Shown here: in pieces, positions 42,636 to 44,308 of the stretch
How the letters are laid out: the number at the start of each line of letters is the position of its first letter
Position numbering within the stretch: position 1 is the stretch's first letter
Source of the DNA: Paenibacillus polymyxa M1
GTDB lineage: Bacteria; Bacillota; Bacilli; Paenibacillales; Paenibacillaceae
NCBI RefSeq assembly: GCF_000237325.1
Contig: NC_017542.1
Span: forward strand, 5,636,501-5,700,500
Direction: 5' to 3'
DNA length: 64,000 nt
Made by a program: the position numbers and the translations under genes
The notes under the pieces: generated by a model
Databases searched by the model: none
Seen by the model: the letters and a program-made list of their open reading frames with translations, nothing else
What the model was told of the DNA's origin: nothing

Positions 42636-42675
42636 AAAAAAGGTATCCTCTTCTTCATAAGAGAATACCTTTTTT
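42636..42675. terminator. Bidirectional terminator between the SgrR-like gene and the peptide/regulator locus
   Basis: A6-GGTATcCTCTT...AAGAGaATACC-T6 with one mismatch; U-rich on both strands. It ends the regulator-propeptide transcript on the minus strand 18 bp after the propeptide stop. Confidence 0.85.
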
Positions 42676-42692
42676 AATGTTATCCAGACCCT

Positions 42693-42845
42693 CTATGCGA
42701 ATGGTTCAGGAGATGACAATGCCCATCCCCCCAGCCCATGACTGTGGACATCGCTTGGGTCTTCTATAGGAGGGGTGACGGGTGGAAAATGCAATAGGAT
42801 AAAAACATTAAATGCGAGCAGAGAAAAAACGATCTTTTTTATCAT
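42693..42845 (-). CDS. Putative secreted signalling propeptide of an RRNPP/AimR-like system, 50 aa
   Basis: Found by reading the minus strand in the frame +1 to the regulator. The ATG at 42845 lies 38 bp inside the end of the regulator gene; GGAGAGGT is about 11 nt upstream. The peptide begins MIKKIVFSLLAFNVFILL, a textbook Sec signal (two Lys, hydrophobic core), then a short Pro/Asp/His-rich region, and ends GLGGWALSSPEPFA, from which a short mature signal could be cut. Size, signal sequence, strand, overlap with a TPR regulator and a terminator immediately after all fit Phr, PapR or Aip propeptides. No sequence family can be named. Confidence 0.72.
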   Translation of the reverse strand: MIKKIVFSLLAFNVFILLHFPPVTPPIEDPSDVHSHGLGGWALSSPEPFA

Positions 42846-44208
42846 GGATGTACTCTACCTCTCCAAGTAAGTTTTTATACTCCTCTTTGTCCTCAGAAGT
42901 GGCAGTATGCCGATACTTTTCAAATAGTCCTACACATTTGATGGTGACAGGATTACCATTCAGCACGACGGAATAGGAAAGGCTCTCGAGCAGGAATTTC
43001 ATACCTTTGGAATAACGATGTTTGTTGAGATCGTAACAAGCCATCTCTGCCAAAAATCGTGCATAGAGATCTGCTGACATTTGCTCGGTATAGGTGCCTA
43101 CCTTGGCATGCTGATCTGCAAATGCCTCAATTTGTTTTTCAAAGTGTTGCAGTACATGATCTACATTAAAATCATAACGGTTGGCCGCTACCATTATTTT
43201 ATGTAACCCCACTAGAATTTCGCCTTCATTTTTTTCCAAATAATCTACATACTGTGGAATTACATCCAAGCTGCCGGACATCAACTGATACAAATACCCG
43301 TTGGCCTCAGCCCAGTTGCTACAAAGAGCCTTCAGACGCCGAGCTTCTTCCGTATCCTCTTGCACCCAGCTCAAATCCGAATACAGGGATACATATTCCA
43401 GCGCTTTCTGATAATCCCCGCGCTCATCCCACACCCCGGCACGCAGCACATAAGAGTATACAATATACATAAATAAAGGACCCTTAGGTTCCCTGCCACG
43501 CTCTGATTTTCTGGTATTTCCGTATTTTTGCTCGTATTGTACTTTGGCTTTTTGAGCCATTTTTTCAGCAAACCATTCTACTTTATCCCAACGCCGCAAG
43601 GAAGCATACGTATTAGCCAAGTCTCTTAAGGCATCTAATTGGTCTGCTTCGCCCAATCGCTCCACAAAGCTTTCAAAATGTGTAGCTGCCCATAAATTCT
43701 CATCCTGATCATCGCCAACGGTAATCGTAAATAAACGGTATTGGCAGAGCGCCAGCCGCTCCGAATGTTGATACTTCTCACTTTCCGCGACATTCTTGTA
43801 AATAATGGCCGCAGCCTCGAACCTACCTTCGCTGAACAATTCCTCCGCTGTCTCAAATAAAGCCGGGGCGTATATGAGATAGTCCATCATAAACTCCACG
43901 ACTTGCTTAATACAATCCAATTTATTCAGCTCTGCACAGCGATGCAAAAAGGGACGAACCCGTCGCCAATTCGGTGCCGTATTCCGTATAAATTCATCAA
44001 TGTATAGCTCATAGAGGCTCCCTTCTTCAAGCCCCATGCCTGCAGCAATCCGATCCAGCAACAGCATCGCAATTGGCCGGTTTCCGTTGATAATGGCACT
44101 AATCGTACCTGCATTAATACCTGTCTTCTCCCCAAACTTACTAATCGTAATTCCTTCTCGTCTGATGTACTGCTCCAGCTCTGCGCGAATAGTGGTTGTT
44201 TCCTTCAA
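42808..44208 (-). CDS. XRE-type regulator with TPR-like C-terminus (RRNPP/AimR-like receptor), 466 aa
   Basis: N-terminal helix-turn-helix (about 1-65: GITISKFGEKTGINAGTISAIINGNRP) followed by about 390 residues of helical repeats (e.g. FEAAAIIYKNVAESEKYQHSERLALCQYRLF; LDALRDLANTYASLRRWDKVEWFAEKM), the layout of peptide-binding RRNPP receptors. The TTG at 44208 has GGGGGTG 6 nt upstream; the in-frame ATG at 44244 has no ribosome binding site. The 3' end overlaps a propeptide gene, which suggests that a secreted peptide controls it. P. polymyxa is known to carry AimR-like orphan receptors (AloR) with adjacent Aip peptides; membership is inferred from layout, not searched. Confidence 0.85.
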   Translation of the reverse strand: MKETTTIRAELEQYIRREGITISKFGEKTGINAGTISAIINGNRPIAMLLLDRIAAGMGLEEGSLYELYIDEFIRNTAPNWRRVRPFLHRCAELNKLDCIKQVVEFMMDYLIYAPALFETAEELFSEGRFEAAAIIYKNVAESEKYQHSERLALCQYRLFTITVGDDQDENLWAATHFESFVERLGEADQLDALRDLANTYASLRRWDKVEWFAEKMAQKAKVQYEQKYGNTRKSERGREPKGPLFMYIVYSYVLRAGVWDERGDYQKALEYVSLYSDLSWVQEDTEEARRLKALCSNWAEANGYLYQLMSGSLDVIPQYVDYLEKNEGEILVGLHKIMVAANRYDFNVDHVLQHFEKQIEAFADQHAKVGTYTEQMSADLYARFLAEMACYDLNKHRYSKGMKFLLESLSYSVVLNGNPVTIKCVGLFEKYRHTATSEDKEEYKNLLGEVEYIHDKKDRFFSARI

Positions 44209-44279
44209 ATCAGGCACCCCCAGGGATAACTTGCATGATTTCAATACAAAAAAAGAAAATTCCCGTGAATATTCCCTTA

Positions 44280-44308
44280 ATTATACAAAAGAAAGCCCAC
44301 TTAGCCAA
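44280..44308 (-). promoter_or_regulatory. Promoter of the TPR regulator/propeptide operon
   Basis: Minus strand: TTGGCT (44308-44303), 17-bp spacer, TATAAT (44285-44280); start near 44273. A direct repeat GGGAAT...GGGAAT in the leader (about 44248-44276) could be an operator. Confidence 0.65.

Follow-up and report, generated by a model that had tools for sequence, protein, structure and literature searches.

In the AimR-AimP (arbitrium) system (NCBIfam NF038310), a peptide receptor bearing a helix-turn-helix (HTH) is encoded adjacent to its propeptide, as at the locus described here. The published family of this kind in Paenibacillus is Alo (autoinducer peptide locus, AloR/AloP; Voichek et al. 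2020, PMC7425212), and the AimR-like orphan receptors with Aip peptides to which a first-pass annotation of this DNA had referred were not borne out. AloP ORFs are described there as 32-50 amino acids long and as situated just downstream of, or overlapping, the 3' end of the receptor gene (PMC7425212). The mature AloP13 pheromone, SHGRGG, acts both in P. polymyxa itself and in a reporter strain of B. subtilis; alo14 is found beside alo13, and its receptor, aloR14, is described as being without a good peptide (PMC7425212). In the Rap-Phr systems, mature PhrH and PhrK are excised from the interior of their propeptides by two cleavages (PMC7425212), a kind of release which we also propose for the present locus. 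According to the same source, Rap receptors are phosphatases (PMC7425212), whereas the receptor studied here carries a DNA-binding HTH.

In this study, we describe a receptor-propeptide pair in a 64,000-nucleotide stretch of Paenibacillus polymyxa M1 DNA (the window, to which all coordinates refer). We propose that the pair is a putative AloR-AloP quorum-sensing unit with an internal SHGLGGW or HGLGGW pheromone, a tail that is trimmed away and putative autoregulation. We assign this reading a probability of roughly 0.8, a joint figure for the whole, vertical inheritance of the unit included.

Both genes lie on the minus strand. ORF reading combined with domain and homology searches places the aloR-type receptor gene at 42808..44208 (466 codons). 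Its TTG start at 44208 is preceded by GGGGGTG, and a further in-frame TTG is present upstream, at 44244. The aloP propeptide gene occupies 42693..42845, extends over 50 codons from ATG to TAG and encodes MIKKIVFSLLAFNVFILLHFPPVTPPIEDPSDVHSHGLGGWALSSPEPFA, including the stretch ...SHGLGGWALSSPEPSA. Its ATG is located 38 nt ahead of the end of the receptor stop codon, giving an overlap of 38 nt. The minus-strand ORF at 42845-42693 reported in the first-pass annotation is thereby confirmed, and so is the gene order of RRNPP systems which it had recognised, a receptor followed by an overlapping propeptide whose N-terminus is hydrophobic. Judged from its residues, a basic N-terminus and a hydrophobic stretch, the 50-amino-acid AloP carries a putative Sec signal.

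At about residues 11-65, the N-terminal part of the receptor matches a Cro/C1-type HTH (Pfam HTH_3, E 1.1e-4) at 22.5 bits, just below the Pfam cut-off of 23. The same family is matched by 57 of 69 aligned members of the receptor family at E <= 0.01. The C-terminal region is putatively helical and TPR-like; in the receptor itself TPR appears as a trace (weak match to Pfam TPR_2, E 0.013), and the tentative assignment comes from relatives that match TPR models at E <= 0.01 (TPR_12 in 18/69 aligned members, TPR_2 in 15/69). An intrinsic terminator hairpin on the same strand (42636..42675, extent taken from the fold) closes the aloR-aloP unit. Hairpin and T-run begin 17-18 nt past the aloP stop, with a folding energy of -22.3 kcal/mol (z -4.4), in agreement with the strong terminator claimed earlier; the corresponding hairpin of ortholog L040 reaches -28.6 kcal/mol (z -4.9). 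A simple terminator scan of the region did not include the hairpin after aloP among its listed sites.

Concerning the family of the pair, the M1 genome reveals 27 receptor matches, 19 of them covering more than 300 query residues; the full-length paralogs among them have identities as low as about 36%. The paralog L019 (E 2.2e-83, 36%) is followed by a propeptide that ends in SHGRGG, and it is adjoined by L018, for which no good propeptide was found in the propeptide scan. By its SHGRGG propeptide and the adjoining L018, L019 is identified at the sequence level as AloR13, and through L019 our pair is assigned to the AloR-AloP family. Homology to AloR was established through the paralogs of the own genome, L019 above all, rather than through published AloR sequences.

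The pair shares with the Alo systems of Paenibacillaceae (Voichek et al. 2020, PMC7425212) a receptor homologous to those of the family (here by way of the paralogs, L019 included) with an N-terminal HTH, HTH_3, though at the slightly subthreshold score given above. It further shares the downstream overlapping propeptide of 50 amino acids with a hydrophobic N-terminus, the HGxGG motif seen in AloP13, and conservation of the system across the polymyxa group. Two differences from the systems described in that paper (PMC7425212) are evident: the core of our pair is internal and followed by a nine-residue tail, and the spo0E-like gene found downstream of alo13 has no counterpart beside our pair. 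An adjacent spo0E target was rejected, the nearest spo0E-like gene on the contig being about 144 kb away. Of the eight spo0E-like genes of the genome, five follow another alo receptor, or a fragment of one, at a downstream distance of no more than about 0.6 kb.

Across the family, 77 of 96 receptor loci gave a propeptide above threshold and 19 did not, picker and threshold being a heuristic of our own; 57 of the 77 propeptides start at exactly -38. The 96 loci include a few that represent pieces of a single gene, as L015 and L025 seem to do, or duplicates of a single record. Seven loci had been dropped before counting, namely L027 and L028-L033, the latter taken as repeats of G-handle genomes. 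Membership in AimR/arbitrium was rejected: the receptor matches the NCBIfam AimR model over about 90 HTH-side residues alone and scores 23.4 bits, far below the cut-off of 70, and over the own genome none of the five matches to the model exceeds that cut-off. Rap-Phr was set apart by the HTH and by the Pfam and NCBIfam hits, which contain no Rap family. A PDB search by sequence yielded HTH-type and chance-level matches, with no RRNPP receptor among the listed names.

Close orthologs of the receptor (E <= 1e-140, 84-100% identity) are present in 15 of 75 genomes of the genus, the own genome counted. All 15 keep the aloP ORF together with a SHG[L/M]GGW core, and in 14 of them the ORF has exactly 50 codons and starts at -38. 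The exception, L049, has 47 codons and starts at -55, counted from a receptor stop that is itself displaced, with tandem stops close to the receptor end; it was excluded from the 14 ortholog rows used for stop counts and pN/pS. In these rows, the codons outside the overlap contain no stop in the aloP frame, as compared to 22 and 21 in the two alternative frames. The first-pass annotation had made the pair depend on conservation of this frame in relatives. As the frame is kept in all 15 orthologs, that test failed to refute the pair.

In a tree of 87 rows, from which the repeats L028-L033 and receptor fragments spanning less than 380 of the query were left out, the 15 ortholog receptors form one clade with a support of 100/100. 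Their surroundings are likewise shared. An SgrR-like gene (SgrR_N/SBP_bac_5) lies downstream of the pair in 15/15 orthologs, a DUF6953 gene upstream in 13/15 (absent beside L046 and L049), and a WYL gene match upstream in 14/15, partial in some, with none in the L049 stretch. The best explanation is that aloR-aloP is a vertically inherited unit of the P. polymyxa group. A mobile or phage location of this copy was rejected because its chromosomal neighbours are kept across species, which is a further difference from AimR-AimP.

It might be argued that the receptor is effectively an orphan, or tuned mainly to another Alo peptide, and that aloP is a decaying relic. The published aloR5, aloR14 and aloR18 are described as being without a good peptide (PMC7425212), and the shortened propeptide of L049 with its tandem stops would fit such decay. 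However, 14 of 15 orthologs retain an ORF of 50 codons whose core is under strong constraint, which speaks against a relic, and we consider this explanation highly improbable. Most likely, AloP is a small secreted peptide that is sensed by the receptor whose gene it overlaps.

The predicted pheromone core SHGLGGW (42723..42743, minus strand) corresponds to aloP codons 35-41 and was located by pN/pS and by the position of the motif in relatives. It is followed by the C-terminal extension ALSSPEPFA (42696..42722, minus strand; codons 42-50), delimited by pN/pS and ortholog comparison. Over the 14 rows, pN/pS, calculated without correction from every pair of these related sequences, is 0.55 in the overlap, 0.58 in the rest of the signal, 0.44 in the linker, 0.06 in SHGxGGW and 0.71 in the tail. 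By amino acid, the core is the most conserved window of seven codons. The core codons do vary, their differences being slightly lower than elsewhere (0.37 vs 0.52). When the core is chosen in advance from AloP13, seven random columns of the 37 outside the overlap match its conservation in 429 of 100000 draws; without this advance choice, the best of 31 windows equals it in 8903 of 100000 shuffles. Since the window test is weaker without a pre-set core, the case depends on the agreement with AloP13 and with relatives that have no tail, and the position of the motif in the propeptide is weightier than the constraint test.

SHGLGG and the SHGRGG of AloP13 are identical at 5 of 6 positions. The fourth residue of the core is L, or M in some members of the group. 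In 42/42 other motif-bearing Alo propeptides, 0-3 residues follow HGxG[G/A], counted from the last motif of each propeptide, as compared to 11 residues in 14 of the 15 orthologs and 8 in one. All 15 close orthologs have the C-terminal extension, which is absent from these 42 propeptides; the 42 are not independent of one another (some are identical, L034 and L074 have the same receptor, and four are own-genome paralogs). Twenty further propeptides do not contain HGxG[G/A]; many of them close with another GG motif, and that of L021 (SNHGVFSYTA) has HG eight residues ahead of its end. Tail-less relatives end in THGSGGW (L053), EHGMGGY (L034) or SHGAGGW (L147), directly followed by the stop. A database protein, P0003, has the SHGLGGW core with a different tail, TFFMP (known from its protein record). 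The mature peptide is most likely SHGLGGW or HGLGGW and not the C-terminal end, because the core is constrained and is C-terminal in tail-less relatives.

The first-pass annotation had taken the C-terminal 6-12-mers of AloP as the signal. Mature Phr peptides are usually located at the extreme C-terminus (Voichek et al., PMC7425212), and many Alo paralogs of the own genome have a GG motif in that position. In aloP, however, constraint is lowest in the C-terminal segment (pN/pS 0.71 vs 0.06 for the core), and the motif found at the C-terminus of other propeptides lies inside this one. The proposal is probably wrong, and we give it very little credence.

A mature signal that retains the tail deserves more attention. 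A single cut before S35 would release the 16-mer SHGLGGWALSSPEPFA, the N-terminal half of which would fill the receptor pocket while the tail is tolerated. According to Voichek et al. (PMC7425212), some AloP peptides are presumably longer when mature, and AloP4, AloP9, AloP15 and AloP16 have more than six residues past the fragments found by MS, possibly being processed further. The tail has the same length in 14 of 15 orthologs, and its serines 44 and 45 are invariant over the 14 rows; since these two serines never vary, the tail may have a function. Against the 16-mer stand the high pN/pS of the tail, natural tails of different length (L049, P0003) and the tail-less relatives, and we regard it as rather unlikely.

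Under the preferred reading, that of an internal pheromone with a discarded tail, a single promoter would give rise to a transcript of aloR and the overlapping aloP up to the terminator. The 50-amino-acid AloP would be exported via its hydrophobic N-terminus. Extracellular proteases would cut before S or H and after W, thereby releasing a short peptide centred on SHGLGGW; it is conservation and the tail-less relatives that point to this two-cut release. By homology to Alo13, the peptide would be re-imported, bind the TPR-like part of AloR and alter its DNA binding. The nearest candidate target would be the promoter of aloR itself, through GGGAATATTCACGGGAATTTTC at the start site.

More tentatively, a C-terminal Alo signal may have been turned into an internal and possibly gated one: in the ancestor of the polymyxa-group orthologs, the stop codon behind an Alo pheromone would have been lost, adding a tail for whose removal a second protease would be needed. 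Six tail-less relatives end in GG[W/Y/F/L] followed by TAA or TGA. Cross-talk with AloP13 is possible in this scenario, since SHGLGG and SHGRGG differ at one position and two deeply split receptors that read near-identical signals within one cell may respond to each other's peptides. We consider the scenario conceivable, with the balance tilting against it.

Upstream of aloR, a sigma-A-type promoter, TTGGCT-17-TATAAT (44280..44308, minus strand), has 10/12 consensus matches. It is conserved in 15/15 orthologs, with an identical -10 and TTGGC[T/G] as -35. The promoter match alone proves nothing, because shuffles hold more such sites than the region (4.8 vs 2). Just downstream of the -10 lies a candidate AloR operator, the repeat GGGAATATTCACGGGAATTTTC (44255..44276, minus strand), proposed from its conservation: among the 15 orthologs it is exact in 12, with 1 mismatch in 2 and 3 mismatches in 1. 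It exhibits partial dyad symmetry and is a single site in the own genome at up to 3 mismatches. A relaxed operator pattern recovered the aloR site in each of eight genomes (0 mismatches in seven, 2 in G031). Elsewhere in the eight genomes it matched three-mismatch sites alone, some of which recur in two to four genomes, and there were control hits in three genomes. The conserved promoter and repeat suggest autoregulation of aloR, and the candidate operator would be the first putative target of AloR.

Overlapping receptor and peptide genes have been described from Paenibacillus before; in the present pair, the conserved signal appears to be internal, not terminal. The pair probably corresponds to a published alo locus, since it fits the search in ATCC 842 as described, which covered homologs of 250 amino acids or more and overlapping ORFs of 30-50 amino acids (PMC7425212). 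Genome G072 contains the ortholog L043 (98% identity, 50-amino-acid propeptide), and 4,353 bases of the ATCC 842 plasmid are present in it at 100%, which hints at ATCC 842 but falls short of proof. Three other P. polymyxa plasmid records of almost equal length match the own receptor equally well, so that other strains seem to carry the plasmid. A literature search for SHGLGG, SHGMGG, SHGRGG, HGLGGW and HGMGGW in the text of papers, as distinct from figures and supplements, found SHGRGG alone, in one paper. Our contribution is a precise prediction of the pheromone (SHGLGGW or HGLGGW, with M replacing L in some members of the group). Moreover, owing to the lineage-specific tail, control of an RRNPP signal by a second cut can be tested cleanly. 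The agricultural use of P. polymyxa lends practical interest to its signalling code.

Other alo loci showed features of their own. The split receptor formed by L025 and L015 (G000:C1:3181850-3184472) seemingly has its N- and C-terminal parts about 1.3 kb apart, with a propeptide ending in NVTIGGF still downstream. Two propeptides contain the presumed core twice, that of L023 (G000:C2:336359-337132) as NNHGANS...NNHGANS and that of L099 as SHGAGT...SHGAGT, resembling the pseudo-repeated pheromones described for Rap-Phr. Several alo receptors or fragments of them (L003, L012, L013, L020/L027, L023, L026) lie on the second, plasmid-like contig C2 of G000, and receptor homologs are present in 32 plasmid records. 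Alo-type receptors with propeptides ending in IHGLGG or SHGAGGW are also encoded on IMG/VR contigs classed as viral (L144, L146, L147); among the eight flanking ORFs of L144 and L147 (two of six loci), six have no phage-family match, one matches an unknown family and one HTH regulators. In L055, L059, L060 and L065, a Spo0E-like gene directly follows the receptor and a propeptide was either not found or looks broken, which suggests that these are orphan receptors retaining their target.
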